From positions 1-38,421 of the forward strand of contig JAGRFZ010000096.1 of assembly GCA_020445785.1 (NCBI GenBank): a DNA stretch of 38,421 nt. Direction: 5' to 3'. The translations under genes and the position numbers were made by a program. The stretch is from Rhodocyclaceae bacterium (GTDB taxonomy: Bacteria > Pseudomonadota > Gammaproteobacteria > Burkholderiales > Rhodocyclaceae). Below the pieces are notes generated by a model. It saw only the letters and a list, made by a program, of their open reading frames with translations, did not search any database and was not told where the DNA came from. The first letter of the stretch is position 1. Each line of letters starts with the position of its first letter. Of this stretch, positions 25,535-35,576 are shown in pieces.

Positions 25535-25611
25535 GCGCCCGTAGCTCAGCTGGATAGAGTACTGCCCTCCGAAGGCAGGGGTCGTGCGTTCGAATCGCGC
25601 CGGGCGCGCCA
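25535..25611 (+). tRNA. tRNA-Arg (anticodon CCG)
   Basis: 77 bases with encoded CCA. Acceptor stem GCGCCCG pairs with CGGGCGC (25601-25607), the D arm contains AGCTCAGCTGGATAGAGT, the anticodon stem CTGCC/GGCAG encloses CTCCGAA with anticodon CCG at 25569-25571, and the T loop is TTCGAAT. It reads CGG codons, common in GC-rich genomes. A terminator follows directly. Confidence 0.98.
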
Positions 25612-25620
25612 AAACATCGA

Positions 25621-25652
25621 TGGGTCGGGTCCGAAGGGCCTGACCCATTTTT
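25621..25652 (+). terminator. Intrinsic terminator of tRNA-Arg
   Basis: Stem TGGGTC (25621-25626) and GACCCA (25642-25647), extended inward by GG/CC pairs with one mismatch, followed by TTTTT (25648-25652). It lies 10 bases after the tRNA CCA end. Confidence 0.8.
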
Positions 25653-25751
25653 CTGCCCAGCGGTATGGCAATGCCGCGTATCCGTCCGTCCACCTTCTGA
25701 TCCCGTTCCGGCCCGGTGCGCCCGGGTGTCGGGCGATGCATGCGGCGCGGA

Positions 25752-25757
25752 TATACT
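25752..25757 (+). promoter_or_regulatory. Possible -10 box for the TIR gene
   Basis: TATACT lies 41 bases before the TIR ATG, in otherwise GC-rich DNA and after the tRNA terminator. No recognisable -35 is at 16-18 bases. The gene itself has a clear AGGAGAG ribosome site. Confidence 0.3.
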
Positions 25758-25797
25758 CTCCTGCGCCGGCCTGCCGGATTCCTGACAGGAGAGACGC

Positions 25798-26718
25798 ATG
25801 AGTGACGTGTTCCTGAGCTACGCGCGGCAGGACCATGCCGCCGCCGAGGCGTTGGCGGCTGCGCTCGAGGCGCAGGGACTGTCGGTGTGGTGGGACCGGC
25901 ACATCGTCGCCGGCCACACCTTCGACGAGGCGATCGAGCGCGAACTCGACAGCGCCGACAGCGTCGTCGTGCTGTGGTCGGCCGCCTCGGTCGGTTCCGA
26001 GTGGGTGCGCAGCGAGGCCTCTACGGCGGCCGAACGGGGCGTGCTGATCCCGGTGTCGATCGACGGCCAGCGGCCGCCGCTCGAATTCCGCCGCAAGCAG
26101 ACGGTCTCGCTGGCGGACTGGCGCGGTGCCGCCGACCACCCCGGATTCACCCAACTGCTGCAGGCAGCGCGCCTGCGCACCGCAGCGTCGACTCCGCCGA
26201 CCGTGCCATCACCGGCGGCCCCGGCCGAGGCGCCGAGGCGATGGCCCCTGCTGCTCGCGCTCGGTGCCGGGCTGGCCGTACTGGTCTATGGCCTGTTCGC
26301 AATCCGGTCGGACCCACCGGCCATCCCGACCCAGGCTGCGACGCCGCCCCCGGCACAGCCGCCAGCCACACCGGCGCCGGCTCCGCGGCCGATCCACCGC
26401 TATCGCTGGCAATTGGTGGCCTCGAACATCGACGATGACATCTACGTCGAGATCAACGCCATCGAGCGCTTCAGGAAGGCGGGCGGGCAGGCCACCTTCG
26501 ACCTCACCCCCTACCTGACCGACGGCGACGACCGGGTGAATGTGCGCCTGGGCAACGGCAACGGCGGCCCCAGTTCGCTGAACGTGCAATTCCTCCGCGA
26601 CGGCAAGCCCTACGGCGGCACCGCGCGCCACAGCATCGTCCTTTCCCACTGGGGCTGGCAATTCGATTGGGAATGGATCGTCAATCGGAGCAGCGGCAAG
26701 ATGCGACGCGTGAAGTGA
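25798..26718 (+). CDS. TIR domain protein with transmembrane segment and novel C-terminal domain
   Basis: 306 residues. Residues 1-125 form a TIR fold: DVFLSYARQD (3-12), the WWDRHIVAGHTF loop (31-42), a strand SVVVLWS (55-61), and Trp69 followed by Glu73 in SEWVRSEAS, the position of the catalytic glutamate in NAD-cleaving TIR domains. A membrane segment (about 149-169, WPLLLALGAGLAVLVYGLFAI) and a Pro-rich linker (172-198) lead to a C-terminal domain (200-300) rich in beta strands and aromatic residues (HWGWQFDWEW). The latter I do not recognise. Topology puts TIR inside and the C-domain outside. Many bacterial TIR-membrane proteins carry sensory outer domains, so it may be a signalling or defence protein. 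Base composition is like the chromosome. Confidence 0.85.
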   Translation: MSDVFLSYARQDHAAAEALAAALEAQGLSVWWDRHIVAGHTFDEAIERELDSADSVVVLWSAASVGSEWVRSEASTAAERGVLIPVSIDGQRPPLEFRRKQTVSLADWRGAADHPGFTQLLQAARLRTAASTPPTVPSPAAPAEAPRRWPLLLALGAGLAVLVYGLFAIRSDPPAIPTQAATPPPAQPPATPAPAPRPIHRYRWQLVASNIDDDIYVEINAIERFRKAGGQATFDLTPYLTDGDDRVNVRLGNGNGGPSSLNVQFLRDGKPYGGTARHSIVLSHWGWQFDWEWIVNRSSGKMRRVK

Positions 26719-26827
26719 GCCGGGCGGCGAAAGCGTGGCCGCGCAAACGTTCGGCGCGGAATGGATGGTTCCGCCGTCCCGGGCCTCGGCGCGGGATAGG
26801 CAAAGAAATGCGCGGCGCGTGAGTCGG

Positions 26828-26841
26828 CGGCCGAAAGGCCG
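26828..26841. repeat. Short hairpin between convergent genes
   Basis: CGGCC-GAAA-GGCCG (26828-26841) is a perfect 5-base stem with a stable GNRA-type tetraloop between the TIR and DUF3592 genes. There is no T run, so it is at best a weak terminator. Confidence 0.3.
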
Positions 26842-26889
26842 ATTGCCCGGGTTCCTGCCGCCGGCCCGCGAAGCAATGCCTCAGCCCGA

Positions 26890-27384
26890 CTATTCCGGGA
26901 ACATGCGCGGAAAGAACTTCGCCATCAACACACCGGTCAGCGTGAATACGAGACCCAGCCCGAGAAAGAACCAGGGAACGCCGTGGCCGCCGGGCTCGAG
27001 AACACACTCGCTTGCGTCTTCGGGTCGAAAATAGACCGTGACGCGTGCGCCCACGGGATACTGCGCGGCGATCGAGGCGGCACGGTCGTACTCGCCGGTG
27101 CCGTATTCGCCGTAGGAGATTCGGTCGCCTTCGAGCCAGCGTCCGTCGACTTCGTAGCGGTAGCCGACCGCCGCGTGGTAGGTCGTCGACGAGCGTGAAC
27201 CGCTCGAACTGCTGCTCTCCGAGCGCACGCCCGAGGTCAGGATTTCGCCCGGCGCCTCGGGCCATTCCAGGCTCCGATAGGCCTTGAGCGTCTGATCGAT
27301 GCCGATCCAAATGCTAAGCGCGCCGACCGCGATGATGATCCACGGAAACACGCGAACCCCGAAAAAGCGCTTCGCCGGTGACAC
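26890..27384 (-). CDS. DUF3592 family membrane protein
   Basis: 164 residues from a GTG at 27384. The architecture is one membrane helix (about 12-30, VFPWIIIAVGALSIWIG), an extracytoplasmic beta domain (about 40-130) and a second helix near the C-terminus (about 137-155, VPWFFLGLGLVFTLTGVLM). The beta domain shows the DUF3592 pattern: AYRSLEWPEAPGEILTS near the start, YHAAVGYRYEVDGRWLEGDRIS, and YPVGARVTVYFRPEDASECVLEPG. A serine-rich loop (SESSSSSGSRSS) interrupts it. Function of the family is not known. It is convergent with the TIR gene and divergent from the phosphoesterase-STAND gene. Confidence 0.85.
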   Translation of the reverse strand: MSPAKRFFGVRVFPWIIIAVGALSIWIGIDQTLKAYRSLEWPEAPGEILTSGVRSESSSSSGSRSSTTYHAAVGYRYEVDGRWLEGDRISYGEYGTGEYDRAASIAAQYPVGARVTVYFRPEDASECVLEPGGHGVPWFFLGLGLVFTLTGVLMAKFFPRMFPE

Positions 27385-27906
27385 CTCGCCCCCCGCAACC
27401 GAATCGGAGTCCGCATCCTAGCATCGGTTCGACGACATGCCGGGCACACCGACCACTTGGATGCCGTTGGCCGTCCCGCCGACCGCGATCGTGATATATC
27501 CGGGCTTGCGAATCATGCATGATGTAAGGAGCGAAGCAGGATGATCGCGATAGGGCGTCGGGCGAAACCTGCCCTGGTGGGCTCGCGGGGCCAATGTCGT
27601 CGCCATGGCAACTTCGCCGGCCATCTGCCGCGGTGAGTAGGGGCGTTGAAGGTTGGGAGAGGCACGATTCGCGGCATGGCTGGAAATCGGCCTTTGCGGC
27701 CGGCCAAGGGCTCGGGCCTCAACAACTGCTACGGAATCGGTAAACTGCCGTTCGGTGAAACGGCGGCGTGCAACTTTTCTAGACCTGGCCCTAAAGGTTC
27801 TCGCCTCCTGACGGCCTCGCGCCTGCAACCTCGATGACTACTTCCTGGGAGTTGCTCGGACGTTGTTTTAGGTAAGCTGCACTCCTTAGACCACCGGGCG
27901 AGACGA
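27385..27906. other. 522-base gap at a composition boundary
   Basis: Between the DUF3592 gene and the low-GC phosphoesterase gene. GC content falls toward the right end. No gene is convincing: the short frames (for instance a 32-codon minus frame from ATG 27516) lack ribosome sites. A perfect 6-base hairpin, GCCGTT-CGGTGA-AACGGC, lies near 27747-27764. The last 60 bases hold TTGCTC (27852-27857) and TAAGCT (27873-27878), a weak promoter with short (15-base) spacing. This stretch may carry debris from the insertion of the following gene. Confidence 0.4.
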
Positions 27907-30900
27907 ATGAAGATCCTCCACCTGTCTGACCTTCATATTGACAAGACCATTGTCAAGGACCAGCGCATTGTTCTGCGGGCACTGTTCGCAGACTTAGAAC
28001 GGGAGGTCAAAGAGTTTGGCTCATTTGACATGGTTTTCTTTACCGGCGATCTAGTCGCCAAGGGGGCCTACACCGAAGAAAACATTGAGCTCGTTCGACG
28101 CGAATTTCTGCAGCCCCTGCTCGAATCGGCCTCCGTTGATCGTACGAGGTTGTTCATGGTCCCTGGGAATCATGATGTCGACTTGAAGTCGCAATCACAG
28201 ATTCTCGCCAACGCTCAAAAGGGGCTCATCGACAATGATGAAATTTCCCGACATCTTACAGAAGTAACCCAGCCAATAGCCCCGAGGACAGGTCTAGAGG
28301 CATTTAACTCATTGCTTGATGAGTGGCTTAAAGCAAAGCCAGTGCTGGAAAACTCCCACTATCGCGGGTACATCGTCAAGGTGGGCGGATTTAACGTCGG
28401 TGTTGCTGCCCTTAACTCAGCGTGGAAATCAACCGGTGCGCCGCAGGACGGTGACTACGGCAAGCTCTTGGTTGGCTCCAAGCAACTTGATGACATCCTT
28501 GAGTGCATGCAAGACGTCCAGATACGGCTAGCGCTTCAGCATCATCCAATTCACTGGATGATGCCAAAAGACACCCAATACCTGCACCGCCAACTGCTTC
28601 TTCATTTTGACGCCCTATTTCATGGGCATAATCATGAACCGGATGCGCAGTTCATTTCTGGAGCCTCCAAGAACTATTTGGTAAGCAATGCTGGGTGTCT
28701 GTATCAAAGCCGAGATTTTTTTAATGGGTACTGTATTTGCACATTCCGGGAACAAACGAATGACTGGGAACTTCGCGCTCGCGAGTACATTGAAGCACGA
28801 CAGGTATTCGACGTTTCGCTAAGGTTTGCGCCCAGCGGAGTGGCAACCTTCACAAAACTCCCCCCCGCCTTGGGCAATGAGGCCCCTTTGTTGCCGACTG
28901 ATGAGTACATCGAGGCACTTCAAACCGCGTGCAATTCTCGCCTGTTGTCTACATTAGTCTCGGGGGTGGCACCGCAATCGCTCAGGACAATTTTTGTAGA
29001 CCCACCTATAAGCAAAGTTTCCGCCAAGCAATTGAGCGTCGAGAAAACGAACGGAGGAAGAAACGTTTTCCTTGCACTTAAGGAGATTCTTGCCAGTAAA
29101 CGGAGCGTGGTCTTTGTTGGCGCAAAGGACATGGGGAAGACAACACTTCTTCATCATTTATGTTCGCTCAGTCTGGATGTCGGGCAAGCCGAGATAGCCC
29201 CATTTGCTTCTTACATAGATCTGGATGCAGCCGGTGAGACACGCGCCAACTTGCTTGAATCTCTGACCGCATTCGGACAGGGCGCCTATCGACGCTCTGA
29301 ATACTTGGCGTTACTCAGAGCGGGATCAATAATGATCTGCTTTGACAACATTAAGACATCAAGGTCACGGCAACTTGAATCAGTCATTGCCCTATGCGCA
29401 GAATTCAATAGCTGCCGATTCTACTTCGCAATCCACGAGGATGCGGAATACTCGCTGTCTGCGGAGTCGCTGCCGAGACTTTGCAGAGAAATGGATGTTT
29501 ACTACCTTCATCCGTTTGGCAGAAAGGAAACGCGTCAGCTAACACAGCGCTGGTACGGAGAAAGCGTAGCACAAGCTTCAGCGAAGGTTGACGAAATTAC
29601 ATCACTTCTATCTCGTCTAAATATTCCACGGTCTCCATTTCTGATTTCGGTGCTGCTATGGATCCGCGAAAAGCAGACGCAGTTTTCCCCGGTTAACCAA
29701 GCCGAGATCATTGACGCCCTCGTTGACGGAGTGATGGAAAAGCTCACGGAGAGCAAAGATCGCTCCGGACTGGATTCCAACATAAAGCGGCACTTTCTTG
29801 CGGATTTGGCCGAACACTTTCATAGAACCGGATCACGTCGAATTACAAGCCATGCGCTTGATGCATTTGCTGTCGACTACTTCGGAAGGAAGGGCCTTCT
29901 CTCTGCAACGGGCCCATTCATTGCCGACCTTAAGAGCAAGAGGATACTGCTCGAAATTGGCAACGAAGTCACTTTCATGTTTGATAGCATCCGCGCGTTC
30001 TTTCTGTCGACTAGGATGAACGAATCACGAGATCTCCTGAATGCCGCATTGACCCCAGACGGCTTTCTCTCGTTGAGCGAGGAACTTGATTACTTCACAG
30101 GCCGACACCGGGACAGGAAAGAGGTCCTTGAGCGAGTAGCTGAGGTAGTTGCTTCGTTTAGGGCAGAGGCAAGTTTAGATATTCAGTTGTCAGCGTTCGA
30201 AGGCATAGCCACTTCTGGCAACCCAGTTTCCGGCGGGGCTTCAGAAGCTGATGATTCTGGTGCCCTGAACTCCGTAATTACTAACCACAGGCCATCGCCC
30301 GAGACGCGAGAGGAGTTGCTTGAGTCAATTGATGAGCAATCCAGAACACGCGGTGCACACGAAGTCGAGGAGATACGTCTAAGTCGAATCCGAGGGGTCA
30401 TTGGAAGGTACTTGGAGGCGTTGCGTGTTGGATCTGCCGTACTGCGCAATTCTGAACTGGTTAACGATGTGCAGCTCAAGCGGACCGTCTACAAGCAGTT
30501 TGTCGCCAATTGGTGTGAGATCATGATTGCCGTCATGATGTCAATCGATTCTACAGAGGATGAGAATCAGGGTTTGGCAGCGCTAAAGAGCTTCTTGCCT
30601 CCCGGAAACCCGAATCTTGCGAACTATCTCTTGAAGATGCTTGCGCCAAACGTCATCATTGCAATCGCCGCCGAAGCCATTGGAACGGCGAAGCTACAGC
30701 TGATAATCGAGGAAGCCATTTCCCAGTCGACGTCAACAGCGGAGAAGATTGTAAATGTATTCTTCTCTGTCGACTTGGGTTTTGATAAACGATTTATTTT
30801 CTTGAAGGGATTGCTCCTGGAAAGCAAAGGAAAGCGTTTCGTTGCTGAACTGGTTTTCTTTAAATTGATGCAACTGTATTTGATCGGTCGAATCAGCGAT

Positions 30901-31038
30901 CGGGACGTTTTGCGTATCAAGGATCTTCTGGGCGAATCTGTTTCCTCGATGATGTCAATCGACTCAGGGCAGGAGCGGGCAGCGACAAAGGCTCGACTGC
31001 TTTCCAGTCTTGAGCGAATGAAGCTCTTGAAACATTAG
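27907..31038 (+). CDS. Calcineurin-like phosphoesterase fused to STAND-type NTPase (putative defence protein)
   Basis: 1043 residues, clearly AT-richer than its surroundings. Residues 1-300 are a metallophosphoesterase with every metal-site motif: D8-x-H10, G47-D48, G87-N-H-D90, H212-H213 and G240-H-N-H243. Residues 385-640 are a P-loop NTPase: Walker A G405-AKDMG-K411-T412 and a Walker B-like strand ending at D480 (IMICFDN). Then come helical segments typical of STAND/NACHT-like proteins (winged-helix area around 590-700) and an all-helical C-terminal region (about 700-1040) with no recognised repeat. In STAND immune proteins the C-terminus senses, the NTPase oligomerises, and the N-terminal domain is the effector, so the phosphoesterase would act on nucleic acid or a nucleotide. 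Activity and target are inferred, not shown. A standalone gene with no partner or transposase nearby; ribosome site weak. Confidence 0.85.
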   Translation: MKILHLSDLHIDKTIVKDQRIVLRALFADLEREVKEFGSFDMVFFTGDLVAKGAYTEENIELVRREFLQPLLESASVDRTRLFMVPGNHDVDLKSQSQILANAQKGLIDNDEISRHLTEVTQPIAPRTGLEAFNSLLDEWLKAKPVLENSHYRGYIVKVGGFNVGVAALNSAWKSTGAPQDGDYGKLLVGSKQLDDILECMQDVQIRLALQHHPIHWMMPKDTQYLHRQLLLHFDALFHGHNHEPDAQFISGASKNYLVSNAGCLYQSRDFFNGYCICTFREQTNDWELRAREYIEARQVFDVSLRFAPSGVATFTKLPPALGNEAPLLPTDEYIEALQTACNSRLLSTLVSGVAPQSLRTIFVDPPISKVSAKQLSVEKTNGGRNVFLALKEILASKRSVVFVGAKDMGKTTLLHHLCSLSLDVGQAEIAPFASYIDLDAAGETRANLLESLTAFGQGAYRRSEYLALLRAGSIMICFDNIKTSRSRQLESVIALCAEFNSCRFYFAIHEDAEYSLSAESLPRLCREMDVYYLHPFGRKETRQLTQRWYGESVAQASAKVDEITSLLSRLNIPRSPFLISVLLWIREKQTQFSPVNQAEIIDALVDGVMEKLTESKDRSGLDSNIKRHFLADLAEHFHRTGSRRITSHALDAFAVDYFGRKGLLSATGPFIADLKSKRILLEIGNEVTFMFDSIRAFFLSTRMNESRDLLNAALTPDGFLSLSEELDYFTGRHRDRKEVLERVAEVVASFRAEASLDIQLSAFEGIATSGNPVSGGASEADDSGALNSVITNHRPSPETREELLESIDEQSRTRGAHEVEEIRLSRIRGVIGRYLEALRVGSAVLRNSELVNDVQLKRTVYKQFVANWCEIMIAVMMSIDSTEDENQGLAALKSFLPPGNPNLANYLLKMLAPNVIIAIAAEAIGTAKLQLIIEEAISQSTSTAEKIVNVFFSVDLGFDKRFIFLKGLLLESKGKRFVAELVFFKLMQLYLIGRISDRDVLRIKDLLGESVSSMMSIDSGQERAATKARLLSSLERMKLLKH

Positions 31039-31381
31039 GCTTTTAGGAGGCCCATCAGCCAGTGAAGCGGCAGCGCTCCCCTAGCGGAAGCGATAGGGTC
31101 GGGTCGCCCATTGTTACCTTCCGCTTGCCATTGAACGCAGGCTTTCCGGTCGGTTTGCCGTCGCTCGGCGGCAACCACCCGAATGGCCGCTCAGGCCGAA
31201 AAAGAGGCGCCCGCTTCGATTCGACGTGGGCCTCGTCCGGCCTCTCCGTGGATTCGCGGAAGGGGATCGTCCCGAATCCGGCAGCCGGCCATGCGCACGG
31301 CAATTCCCGCGCGATGCCTGCAACCCGTACCGGCGGCGCGGAGTGCTGACGCCGTGGCCAACGAGGACGAACTTCCCCCCC
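31039..31381. other. 343-base gap after the phosphoesterase-STAND gene
   Basis: Returns to high GC within about 60 bases of the stop codon. An inverted repeat AGCGGAAG (31083-31090) / CTTCCGCT (31118-31125) is present, with a GGGTCGGGTCGCCC segment between; no T run follows, so termination is uncertain. The overlapping open frames on both strands look like coding shadow and have no ribosome site. No gene is supported. Confidence 0.4.
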
Positions 31382-34300
31382 TCAGTCGAATGTCGGCCAC
31401 TGTGCTTGCAGGCCGCTGCCCTCGAGCGTCGCCTCGATCGCCGTGGCGATCTCTTCCGCTCGGCGGCGATGCCCGGCGGCAACGCCGGTGTCGCCGGACG
31501 CGCGGGCGATGCGTGCGAGCAGGCGCTCGGCGTCGAGTTCCAGGCGCACCCGCCCAATGCCTTGCGCGCTGTCGCGGCACACCGTCAACGCCCTGCGGGC
31601 CTCGTCGGGGCGTCCGTCCAGCAGCCAGGCTTCGGCCTGCCAGCGGTGGGCGACGGCGGCCATTTCAGCCAGGTCGTTGGCCGTGCCGATGGCCAGCAGT
31701 TCGTCGGCGGCGGTCCGCGCCGCGGCGGCGTCGCCGGTAGCGATCGCGCGCTCTGCGGCGGCTTCTAGGCAGCGCAGCAGCAGGTAGCGCTCGCGATTGT
31801 CCCTGGCCGTGGCAATCGTGTTGGCGAGTGCCGGTGCCGCCTCCGGCTCGCCGGCGCGACAGCAGGCGATCACCAGGTCGGCCAGCAGCGTGGTTTCCCA
31901 GAAGCGGATGCCGGTGTCGCGGATCAGCGCGAGTGCGGTCTCGGCCTGGCCTCGCGCTTCTCGGTCGAGGCCCAGGTCGAGCAGGAGCTGGGCGGCGAAG
32001 TCGTGGCCGATCATCTGGTAGCGTACCTGATCGACACCGACCAGCCAGGTCATGGTTTCCTGCATCTGCGTCCATGCCTCGCCGTAGCGGCCGGTGCAGG
32101 CCCATACGTGCTGCTGGCCGAGCAGGGTTGGGCCGAGGTGCCACTGGAGGTCGGCGTCGCGGGCGATTCCGAGCGCCGCCGCGAAGCTCTGTTCGGCGCC
32201 GGGGTAGTCGGCGATGCCGCGGCCGCCGCACTGGGCGTGGCCGATCATCATCAGGTTCTCGGATTCGTAGCTGCGGTCGCCGATGGCGCGGGCCAGTTCG
32301 ATCGAACGCCGGTAGCTGTCGATCGCGGCCACCGGTTCGGCATCGGCGAAATAGGCCTCGCCGCGTCCGTGCCAGGCCTGTACCGCCGCCAGGTCGGCGA
32401 AGCCCTCGGCCTGGCAGATGTCCACGGCCTCCTGATGGTGCGTGATCGCCAGGCCGTTGCGGCCGATGCTCCAGGCGACGGTGCCGAGATGGTAGAGGGT
32501 GTCGGCGACGTGCCAGTGGTCGTCGAGGGCGCGGGATTCGTCGAGGGCTTCGAGCAGGCACTCGCGGGCACGATCGTAGGCGTCGGCGCGGCGATAGGCC
32601 ATGCCGAGCTGGATGGTCAGGTCGCGCAGGCGGGCGCGGTCGCCGCTGGCGCGGGCGGCTTCGATGACGCGCCCGATGTCCTCGACCGCGCCGTCGGTGA
32701 CCCCGGCCTGGGCGCGGGCGATGCCGCGCCGCTCGTAGAGGTCGAGCCGCGCCGTGTCGTCGGCGGCGGCCGGGTGCGCATCGGCGAGCGCCACCGCCCG
32801 ATCGAGCCAGCGCAGGGCCTCGCCCATCGCGAACAGGTGCTGGGCGCGCTCGGCGGTGCGCAGCAACGGATCGAGCGCGCGCGACCACTGGTGCGATCGC
32901 TCGAAGTGCTCGGCCAGCCGTGCGCCGCGCTCGGCCGGCGCGATGTTGTGGGCGCCCTCCAGCGCGGCGGCGACCGCGCCGTGCAGCAGCCGGCGCCGTG
33001 CGCCGCCGATTTCGGCATAGGCCACCTCGCGCAGCTTGTCGTGGCTGAAGTCGTAGATGCCGCCGTCCGCCTCCTCGCGCAACAGTCCGCGACCGACCAG
33101 GCGCTCCAATCCGTCCAGCAGCCAGTGCTCGGTCTCGCGCCCGGCGGCCAGCAGGGTGTCGAAATCGAAGCGTCGGCCGATCACCGCGGCGGTGTCGAGG
33201 ATCGGCCGGATGTCCCGCGGCACCTGGTCGAGCCGGGTGCGGATGGCCGCGCGCAGCGCGTCGGGCAGGGCCACCGCCGTGCCGCCCGGCGTGCCTTCGT
33301 CGCTGGCGACGCCGTGCAGCAGCGCGGTGAGGAAGAACGGATTGCCCTCCGACTCGCGATGCAGCCGTGCGACCGACGCCGCCGAGCCGAGGCGTGGGTC
33401 GTCGCTCGCCGCCAGCAGGCGGCCGGTATCCTCGGGTGCGAGCCGGGCCAGCCGCAGCCGCACTTCGGCGGCGTCACGCTCGAGGCTGTCGGCCCACTGG
33501 GCCAGGCGGGCGTTCTCGCCCAACTCCTCGTCGCGATAGGCGTAGATCGCCAGCAGCGGCCAGCCGCCGCGCTGGCGGCCCAAATAGTGGAACACCCGGG
33601 CGCTGGCCTCGTCCGCCCACTGGGCGTCGTCCAGGGCCAGCACCAGCGGCCGGTCGCCGCGGGCCGCGGCGAGCAGTTCGTCGATCGCGCGCATCATCCG
33701 CGCCTGGCGCGCTTCGGGGAAATCCCGGGCGAGCTCCGGCAGCCCCGGAAAGCACTCGGCCACGGCCGGCGACAGGGCCGCCAGTTCGGCCAGTGCGACC
33801 GGGGCGAGCCTGTCGAGCGCGCCCTGTGGTGCGCGGGCGAGGGCGATCGAGATCAGTTCGACCACCGACTGGTACGGCGTGCTGCGTTCGATCTCGTAGC
33901 AGCGCAGCGCGAACATCGGCACCTCGGCCTGCCGCGCGTGGCGCCCGATCTCCCGCAGCAGCCGGCTCTTGCCGATGCCGGGTTCGCCTTCCACCAGGGC
34001 CAGCCGGCGCCCGCCGCGGCGCACCGCCTCGAGCAGCGCATCGAGGCGCGCTAGTTCGCGGTCGCGTCCGACCAGTGGTGTGGCCTCGGCAGACGGCGTG
34101 GCATCGGTCGGCAGGGCCGGTGCGGCATCGGTGGCACGGCGCGGGCGGCTGTCCACCGGCAGCGGTTCGGGGCGGCCGACCGATCGGGCGGCATCGACGA
34201 ACGCGGCGCGTTCGCCGTCCGGAACGCCGAGGGCCTCGGCCAGGCGCTCGGCGAGCGGGCGGGAGGGACGCCGTTCACCGGCTTCGATCTTGCGGATCGC

Positions 34301-34405
34301 GTAGCCGGAGCAACTGACCCGGGCAGCCAGCGCCTCCTGGGTCATGTCGAGCGCCTTGCGGCGCCGCTTCAGCCAGTAGCCGAACGAATGGGTGCGTTCA
34401 TCCAC
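31382..34405 (-). CDS. XRE-family regulator with ATPase and helical-repeat domains
   Basis: 1007 residues from a GTG at 34405 that has GGAG eight bases upstream; the frame stays open further upstream, but that part is arginine- and proline-rich junk. The N-terminus is a helix-turn-helix of XRE type (about 6-65: FGYWLKRRRKALDMTQEAL, then SGYAIRKIEAGERRPS). A P-loop ATPase follows (about 100-400) with Walker A GEPGIGKS (Lys146) and Walker B LVLALDDAQWAD (about Asp259), the STAND/AfsR-MalT type. The remainder (about 440-1007) is a long array of TPR-like helical pairs. Such proteins are ligand- or partner-controlled transcription regulators. It is divergent from a methyltransferase gene and likely controls it or itself. 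Confidence 0.87.
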   Translation of the reverse strand: MDERTHSFGYWLKRRRKALDMTQEALAARVSCSGYAIRKIEAGERRPSRPLAERLAEALGVPDGERAAFVDAARSVGRPEPLPVDSRPRRATDAAPALPTDATPSAEATPLVGRDRELARLDALLEAVRRGGRRLALVEGEPGIGKSRLLREIGRHARQAEVPMFALRCYEIERSTPYQSVVELISIALARAPQGALDRLAPVALAELAALSPAVAECFPGLPELARDFPEARQARMMRAIDELLAAARGDRPLVLALDDAQWADEASARVFHYLGRQRGGWPLLAIYAYRDEELGENARLAQWADSLERDAAEVRLRLARLAPEDTGRLLAASDDPRLGSAASVARLHRESEGNPFFLTALLHGVASDEGTPGGTAVALPDALRAAIRTRLDQVPRDIRPILDTAAVIGRRFDFDTLLAAGRETEHWLLDGLERLVGRGLLREEADGGIYDFSHDKLREVAYAEIGGARRRLLHGAVAAALEGAHNIAPAERGARLAEHFERSHQWSRALDPLLRTAERAQHLFAMGEALRWLDRAVALADAHPAAADDTARLDLYERRGIARAQAGVTDGAVEDIGRVIEAARASGDRARLRDLTIQLGMAYRRADAYDRARECLLEALDESRALDDHWHVADTLYHLGTVAWSIGRNGLAITHHQEAVDICQAEGFADLAAVQAWHGRGEAYFADAEPVAAIDSYRRSIELARAIGDRSYESENLMMIGHAQCGGRGIADYPGAEQSFAAALGIARDADLQWHLGPTLLGQQHVWACTGRYGEAWTQMQETMTWLVGVDQVRYQMIGHDFAAQLLLDLGLDREARGQAETALALIRDTGIRFWETTLLADLVIACCRAGEPEAAPALANTIATARDNRERYLLLRCLEAAAERAIATGDAAAARTAADELLAIGTANDLAEMAAVAHRWQAEAWLLDGRPDEARRALTVCRDSAQGIGRVRLELDAERLLARIARASGDTGVAAGHRRRAEEIATAIEATLEGSGLQAQWPTFD

Positions 34406-34592
34406 GCGGTCATCTCCGGGTTCCCTCCGACAGTGTAGCCCGGATGCCGCCGCCGAAAGCGGGATCCCGGGGGGACGGGGCGCGAGCGAACCGGCGCGTC
34501 GCGCCCGATGCCGCGCGGGCCCCGCACGCGGGTGGCCGGCGATCGCCGCAGTGGCTTCCTGCGCCTGCGGGTACCTGGTCGAAGCGCCGGGT

Positions 34593-34607
34593 TTCGAATC
34601 GCGCCGG
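34593..34607 (+). repeat. 15-base direct repeat of the tRNA-Arg T-arm
   Basis: TTCGAATCGCGCCGG occurs here and at 25589-25603 inside tRNA-Arg, exact and in the same orientation. Matches end one base outside on each side. It could be an attachment-site remnant of an element once inserted at the tRNA, or chance; the tRNA acceptor end is not repeated. Confidence 0.5.
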
Positions 34608-34628
34608 CGGCTTCGCCGTGGCGGCAAC

Positions 34629-34656
34629 GCTTTCTGTCCCGCTTTCTGTCCCGCTT
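34629..34656 (+). repeat. 12-base tandem repeat
   Basis: GCTTTCTGTCCC occurs twice head to tail (34629-34640, 34641-34652), followed by GCTT of a third partial copy. It is a local slippage repeat in the regulator/methyltransferase intergenic region. Confidence 0.75.
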
Positions 34657-34742
34657 GGCGTGACCCCGTCGAGACGGCGCGCTGGTGAAATGAGCCTGCC
34701 TGAAACGCAAGGCCAATCCACCCGAACCCCAAGGAGAGAATC

Positions 34743-35576
34743 ATGAATCCGATCCAGACCAACAGCCAGCCCGCCACCCCCGACCTCGGCGCCGTCAAGA
34801 AGAAGCAGCACGCCGCCTGGTCGGCCGGAGACTACGCAGTGGTTGGCACCACCCTGCAGATCGTCGGCGAATCCCTGTGCGAGGCCCTCGACCTGCGCGC
34901 CGGCGAGTCGGTGCTCGACGTGGCCGCCGGCAACGGCAACTCGACGCTTGCCGCGGCGCGGCGCTGGGCCGACGTGGTATCCACCGACTATGTGCCGCAA
35001 CTGCTGGAGCGGGCTCGTCAGCGCGCCGATGCCGAAGGCCTGCGCATCCAGTTCGAGCAGGCCGACGTGGAGCAGTTGCCGTATCAGGATGGTGAGTTCG
35101 ACGTCGTGATGTCGTCCTTCGGCGTCATGTTCACGCCGGACCAGAAGCGCGCCGCGGCCGAGATGGCACGGGTCTGCCGCGCCGGCGGCCGCATCGGCCT
35201 CGCCAATTGGACGCCGGAGAGCTTCGTCGGCCAGATCTTCAAGGTCATCGGCCGCTATCTGCCGCCGCCCGCCGGCGTCGTTTCACCGGCGCTGTGGGGC
35301 ACCGAGGCGCACCTCGAGACCCTGTTCGCCGGTCGCTGCCGGGAGATCCGCAGCGAGACCCGCCAGTTCGTCTTCCGCTATCGCAGCGCGGCCCACTGGC
35401 TGGACGTCTTCCGTGCCTACTACGGTCCCATGCACAAGGCCTTCGAGGCGGTCGATCCGGCGCTGCAGGATTCCCTCGCCGACGATCTCATCACCCTGGC
35501 CGAGCGTTTCAATCGCGCCACCGACGGCACCCTGGTCGCCCCCGCCGACTACATCGAAGTGGTGGTCCAGCGCTGA
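34743..35576 (+). CDS. Class I SAM-dependent methyltransferase
   Basis: 277 residues with AAGGAGAG before the ATG. A Rossmann methyltransferase of the UbiE/type-11 style: motif I VLDVAAGNGNSTL (57-69), an acidic residue after strand 2 (VVSTDYVPQLLERAR), motif near QADVEQLPYQDGEFDVV, and FGVMFTPDQKRAAAEMARV, then CRAGGRIGLANWTP. The C-terminal part (from about 165) would bind the acceptor, which cannot be predicted. It is not UbiE itself, which has other signatures and neighbours. Divergent from the XRE-ATPase regulator. Confidence 0.9.
   Translation: MNPIQTNSQPATPDLGAVKKKQHAAWSAGDYAVVGTTLQIVGESLCEALDLRAGESVLDVAAGNGNSTLAAARRWADVVSTDYVPQLLERARQRADAEGLRIQFEQADVEQLPYQDGEFDVVMSSFGVMFTPDQKRAAAEMARVCRAGGRIGLANWTPESFVGQIFKVIGRYLPPPAGVVSPALWGTEAHLETLFAGRCREIRSETRQFVFRYRSAAHWLDVFRAYYGPMHKAFEAVDPALQDSLADDLITLAERFNRATDGTLVAPADYIEVVVQR

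Follow-up and report, generated by a model that had tools for sequence, protein, structure and literature searches.

The 38,421-nucleotide stretch of contig JAGRFZ010000096.1 from a Rhodocyclaceae bacterium (hereafter the window) carries a gene for a metallophosphoesterase (MPP)-NACHT protein. We read its product as a single-gene, horizontally acquired anti-phage STAND protein (bacterial NLR-like), with a probability of about 0.78. This reading draws on profile matches to PDC-S60, DS-8 and DS-9A, on published experiments with DS-8, on conserved metal ligands and on a NACHT fold that is backed by a sequence profile. It also draws on the position of the gene in a variable slot beside a tRNA gene, its AT-rich composition, the restriction-modification (R-M) and prophage contexts of relatives, and relatives in which a TIR domain takes the place of the MPP. 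A preliminary description of the DNA had proposed a candidate anti-phage system and, judging from these matches and contexts, very likely had the defence role right.

The gene is a single intact open reading frame (ORF) of 1043 codons with an ATG start and no internal stop, its boundaries exactly as first described (Table 1). Its GC content is 0.50 against 0.68 in the remaining window, and the self-match of the protein is unique in the 4.58-Mb source draft genome. Consistent with the intact calcineurin-like phosphoesterase of the preliminary description, Pfam Metallophos matched residues 1-245 (1.5e-14) and the PADLOC model Effector, whose description reads endonuclease, matched residues 3-311 (1.3e-20). 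The metal ligands are conserved in an alignment of 30 rows, the window protein and 29 relatives, with H241 replaced by Asp in two of them (L018 and L029). The solved structures nearest to the MPP by sequence profile were Mre11 (1.7e-9), Lmo2642 (3.5e-9) and SbcD (7.9e-9), followed by Rv0805 (6.6e-6) and GpdQ (2.4e-4). A comparison of predicted folds slightly reversed the ranking of the nearest structures and does not decide the substrate class. The nearness to Mre11 raises the alternative of an Mre11/SbcD-like DNA repair nuclease, as do matches to TIGR00619 sbcd (5.4e-6) and to phrog_100, labelled SbcD-like subunit (5.4e-29), yet the best stretch of the latter, residues 479-1040, lies outside the MPP. 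Moreover, the SbcD score is 26.4 bits against a cut-off of 77.65, no SbcC/Rad50-like family was found in the nine window ORFs scanned, and the MPP is fused to a NACHT module; a repair role is highly improbable.

The P-loop NTPase that follows the MPP is of NACHT type by predicted fold and by profile. Foldseek returned NLRC4 (3.8e-8) and also NOD2 and NLRP3, and a sequence profile of the NACHT and C-terminal regions found NLRC4 in the PDB (7e-5). In Pfam, the matches behind Metallophos are weak ones to AAA_14 and nSTAND; PF24406 nSTAND_NTPase4 is weak on the window protein (0.0039) and clear in four relatives. Both Walker motifs are present. Since Lys411 is kept in 25 of the 30 rows and the metal ligands are near-invariant, the phosphoesterase is conserved more strictly than the P-loop. 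Residues 697-1043 are all helices in the predicted structure (pLDDT 83.5, pTM 0.81), and a Foldseek search of the PDB with the C-terminal model gave no match at E<=0.001. The P-loop NTPase, the long helical C-terminus (in the predicted model) and the effector-NTPase-C-terminus order of STAND proteins were all claims of the preliminary description that held. Avs proteins, which are STAND defence proteins, have an effector-NTPase-sensor order. Nothing pointed to Avs in particular: PADLOC, whose library we take to include Avs models, listed four models up to E 1, namely PDC-S60, Effector and a pair of PDC-S01 models, and none for Avs.

The strongest family match was to PADLOC PDC-S60 (2.5e-84), which aligned protein residues 1-943 to model positions 1-925 of 1027. 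This model scored 280-1403 bits in the window's clade (14 rows tested) and 80-211 bits in six sister-clade rows with an MPP, and gave no score on three TIR proteins tested. A full-text literature search for "PDC-S60" found no paper, and the family therefore stands as a computed phage defence candidate without an attached function. The NCBIfam model DS8_antiphage matched residues 5-706 (2.5e-53) at 181 bits, below its cut-off of 790, which rules out that the protein is DS-8 itself. None of the 35 genomes or records searched reached that cut-off, the top score being 788 bits in locus L040. Although the DS-8 alignment ends at residue 706, our C-terminal model matched this DS-8-like protein at 140 bits. 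DS9_1_antiphage matched over the MPP (residues 2-213, 2.4e-15). On these sequence comparisons the window protein is outside DS-8, in a sister clade, and belongs to PDC-S60, a sister group for which the literature search found no published function.

Experimental support comes from the validated relatives. The DefensePredictor report (PMC13092281) describes DS-8 as a single protein with an MPP and a NACHT module that protects E. coli from phage; substitution at any one of three positions, two in the MPP and one in the NACHT, abolishes protection. It also describes DS-9 as an experimentally validated system of two genes, one for an MPP and one for a HAD phosphatase. A phosphoesterase effector is thus better explored than the preliminary description had assumed. 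Its statement that calcineurin-type effectors had been proposed from comparative genomics agrees with two reports that predict them in such proteins (PMC7159879, PMC8195603).

Horizontal transfer, as proposed initially, is supported by the position and composition of the gene. Both window flanks align collinearly with the congener G005 (87-88% DNA identity), which in place of the 5.7-kb slot that holds the gene has 2.0 kb of different sequence containing a single 77-base match. Synteny of G002 and G004 with the window likewise stops right after the tRNA-Arg. GC at third codon positions is 0.54 in the gene and 0.87 in a nearby TIR gene. In every one of 28 related loci the gene is more AT-rich than the flanking DNA (median difference 0.108; two of 30 loci were dropped because their flanks were shorter than 3 kb), and in 21 of them it is the most AT-rich called gene of at least 200 aa.

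A survey of the neighbourhoods of homologues, as had been suggested, placed some relatives in defence and mobile contexts. One relative lies between hsdM and hsdS-hsdR (L047). Another (L017) has hsdM-hsdS before it and, after it, an AbiE-like pair, a fragment of hsdR and a transposase. Both appear to sit inside type I R-M operons; the neighbour names come from reading the sequences, supported by a Pfam tally and BLAST clusters. In the one genome opened, the E. coli prophage copy lies between antiterminator Q and the holin/lysis genes, on the opposite strand. Plasmid-borne relatives were also found, and the DS-8-like gene of L040 has ribosomal protein genes on one side and rpoB on the other, with recombinase pieces ahead of it. 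By eye, a recombinase-like gene neighbours the relatives in L012 and L014, and L013 has transposase-like and TIR-like neighbours. The second gene upstream of the relative in L013 (8754-9566, minus strand) resembles the CAP12/Pycsar TIR domain by eye; Pfam counted two neighbours of this kind across the survey of 131.

With a single MPP peptide pattern, our genome-contig scan supplied the best 80 of 172 relatives, and a viral scan with the MPP pattern gave 20. All three of our models (MPP, NTPase and C-terminus) matched 31 of these 80 and six of the 20 viral relatives (in one of the six, L104, the MPP is split), and the remainder were partial or joined the MPP to other parts. Among the matches listed, the closest relatives are from Roseateles (48%), Paraburkholderia and Caballeronia (36%), Variovorax (33%) and Ca. 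Anammoxibacter (26%). Three of 61 genomes of the genus, family and order, including the window's own, contain a match, which spans the whole protein in the window and is confined to the MPP in G003; in G029 it covers the MPP of a frame truncated at a contig end. A PDC-S60 search of 321 class genomes gave four matches including the window, the other three outside its clade; L009 is a sister-clade MPP-NACHT protein, L010 an MPP-SIR2 protein and L011 an MPP with a P-loop by eye. Searching 398 phylum genomes with the NACHT and C-terminal regions also gave four: the window itself, a full-length MPP protein in G691 (29%, GC 0.36 within a locus of 0.60), a gene truncated at a contig end in G454 and a TIR protein in G500. 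Searches with these regions of the window's clade found few matches, Calothrix and Exiguobacterium records among them. A same-clade relative occurs in 18 of 5426 complete E. coli genomes, with at least 80% gene coverage in 16. Nine other MPP proteins were scanned; five have a recognised P-loop domain and four have the MPP alone, in a non-N-terminal position in three. As observations on single relatives, the Ca. Anammoxibacter genome of L015 (G384) encodes three more MPP proteins, whose open frames span 1154-1209 aa, and is thus rich in this domain, and in the Klebsiella grimontii plasmid pNY3A (L006, 10001-13149) an L093-type plasmid copy is broken into two ORFs and is probably inactive.

Many MPP proteins are housekeeping enzymes, and the nearest relative (L016) sits, by eye, among ordinary chromosomal genes, as would suit a housekeeping or regulatory phosphoesterase with no part in defence. 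The three matches in 61 genomes, full-length in the window alone, argue against such a role, as do the slot that differs in the congener, the plasmid, prophage and R-M contexts of relatives, the AT-richness at every locus compared and the NACHT fusion. We regard a housekeeping role as improbable.

Relatives with a different N-terminus bear on what the MPP does. A tblastn search of plasmids with the L040 protein found TIR proteins of Vibrio (residues 405-1040), Streptococcus (360-872) and Lactococcus (361-849), all without an MPP. Pfam recognised TIR_2 and nSTAND_NTPase4 in three of five TIR proteins (L142, L137, L138); the TIR of L148 was assigned from annotation and that of L145, which is cut at a contig end, by eye. 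In direct BLAST, the TIR protein L142 aligned to the MPP protein L040 with 27% identity over 719 aa (220 bits) and to the viral-contig MPP protein L107 with 27% over 692 aa (257 bits); we quote bits instead of E-values because the set held 12 sequences. A tree of the NACHT and C-terminal regions with 29 rows is split in two by a 100/100 branch. Clade A holds the tree's five TIR rows together with six MPP rows, DS-8-like L040 among them; clade B consists of 18 MPP rows, and in it the window protein stands beside Roseateles at 100/99. On this tree TIR requires two changes. The MPP itself has further partners: NACHT and FGE (L038), nSTAND_NTPase5 (L051, L063), NB-ARC and TPR (L052), and SIR2 (L010). 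Given these several NTPase and SIR2 partners, and TIR in the same slot, we read the MPP as a probable portable effector domain. As a separate observation, the MPP-SIR2 fusion (L010 1-3399) lies directly behind an ATPase that by eye has an SMC/RecF look.

TIR domains are known to destroy NAD or to make a signal from it. Because TIR fills the MPP slot in the sister clade, we lean towards a toxic enzyme, and the exchange suggests that the MPP is a toxic phosphodiesterase or nuclease, not solely a signal degrader. A signal-degrading MPP in the same kind of immune receptor is what the DS-8 authors suggested from likeness to human SMPDL3A: degradation of a cyclic nucleotide or other signal (PMC13092281). 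Against this stand the nearest MPP structures, with SMPDL3A absent from the 23 PDB sequences found at E<=0.01 by the MPP sequence profile, the endonuclease description of the matching Effector model and the occupation of the slot by TIR; we consider it unlikely, though a serious alternative. The most likely substrate is nucleic acid or an abundant nucleotide. Under our anti-phage reading, the helical C-terminus would respond to a phage-made trigger, the NACHT would then bind or exchange nucleotide and an oligomer assemble, and the N-terminal dinuclear-metal phosphoesterase would be switched on and cleave a phosphodiester substrate needed by the cell or phage, so that infection aborts. A more specific proposal is tentative, at somewhat less than even odds: that the MPP of PDC-S60 and DS-8 is an interchangeable toxic effector in the TIR slot that destroys nucleic acid or a core nucleotide on activation, contrary to the cyclic-nucleotide idea, and that PDC-S60 is a separate immune family of plasmids, prophages and R-M operons whose sensor has no confident PDB match.

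Several observations weigh against the anti-phage reading or its parts. The low DS-8 score of 181 against 790 bits, with an alignment that stops at residue 706, means that DS-8 activity is transferred to the window protein over a long distance. The Walker A lysine is lost in five of 30 rows (L024, L034, L044, L094, L095), so some copies may be dead, or else ATP hydrolysis may not be required. By eye, no defence or mobile neighbour genes surround L016. The window protein is linked to TIR proteins weakly and through the Vibrio protein only (20% over 489 aa, 47 bits), and with ordinary HMMER filters our NTPase model found only one of three TIR proteins and missed L142 in a repeat; the others were recovered with filters off, by direct BLAST or by a search with the NACHT and C-terminal regions. 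TIR is confined to clade A and appears in none of the 18 rows of clade B, an absence that is hardly tested since most of those rows were found through the MPP pattern, and the genome-contig scan, with its one MPP pattern, could not detect TIR members of the window's clade. Finally, TIR on this tree may have a single origin.

Table 1 Features of the MPP-NACHT gene and its slot, in window coordinates.
Feature	Position	Strand	Basis
MPP-NACHT-helical protein gene, PDC-S60 family	27907..31038	+	ORF; PADLOC PDLC05051; NF053861 below cut-off
MPP effector domain, residues 1-300	27907..28806	+	Pfam Metallophos over residues 1-245
MPP motif I, D8-x-H10	27928..27936	+	29/29 alignment rows covering the site
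MPP motif II, D48	28048..28050	+	30/30 rows
MPP motif III, N88-H89	28168..28173	+	30/30 rows
MPP motif IV, H212-H213	28540..28545	+	30/30 rows
MPP motif V, H241-x-H243	28627..28635	+	H243 in 30/30, H241 in 28/30 rows
NACHT/STAND NTPase, residues 385-700	29059..30006	+	Foldseek; profile against PDB; PF24406 weak
Walker A, residues 405-412 (GAKDMGKT)	29119..29142	+	Lys411 in 25/30 rows
Walker B region, residues 476-481 (MICFDN)	29332..29349	+	Asp480 in 30/30 rows
All-helical C-terminal domain, putative sensor, residues 701-1043	30007..31035	+	Predicted model
tRNA-Arg (CCG), left border of slot	25535..25611	+	ARAGORN; synteny with G005, G004, G002 stops at 25650-25654
Slot containing the gene, differs in congener G005	25651..31376		Flank comparison with G005

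The flanking ORFs encode a DUF3592 protein (26890-27384, minus strand) and a convergent HTH-AAA_16-TPR protein (31382-34798, minus strand). The isolation noted in the preliminary description holds in that no same-strand partner adjoins the gene among the window ORFs; it fails in that a TIR-domain gene and the tRNA-Arg lie within 2.5 kb upstream. The TIR_2-domain protein (306 aa, 25798-26718, plus strand) follows the tRNA-Arg and has host-like GC; its gene has 75-79% DNA matches in four congeners, and the copies in G005, G002 and G004 are on a contig other than that of the tRNA-Arg match. A dispersed repeat of about 40 bases (27467-27509) recurs with 85-90% matches on five further contigs of the source genome, beginning at contig base 69 in two cases. 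The HTH-AAA_16-TPR protein is itself STAND-like in domain order; its gene is kept in G005 at 87% DNA identity and is therefore probably genus backbone.

The substrate of defence MPPs is a question left by the DS-8 report (PMC13092281). The same NACHT and C-terminus with TIR or MPP would allow sensing and cutting to be asked about separately. Since the window protein is far from DS-8, any behaviour common to both would probably extend to the family at large. The same-clade E. coli prophage copy suits work in laboratory strains.

Among known systems, the MPP also matches YydB (PDB 9a6c chain B), a B. subtilis protein; this 481-residue chain, from an entry that is an integrative model of the YydD-YydB pair, is matched over the MPP alone. 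With STAND/NACHT proteins the window protein shares a P-loop with Walker A and B motifs and, in the predicted model, a NACHT-type fold. The TIR-NACHT proteins (L142, L145, L137, L138, L148) have the NACHT and helical C-terminus of the DS-8-like clade with TIR replacing the MPP, and are nearer to DS-8-like rows than to the window protein. The effector-NTPase-sensor order is also that of bNACHT (PMC12169576). DS-9 has an MPP homologous to that of the window protein but comprises two genes as opposed to one. DS-8 shares with the window protein a single polypeptide in which an N-terminal MPP with its metal ligands precedes a NACHT module, and differs in that the 100/100 branch separates DS-8-like L040 from it. 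The window protein is thus a distant new member of a kind already known, of which DS-8 is one tested member.
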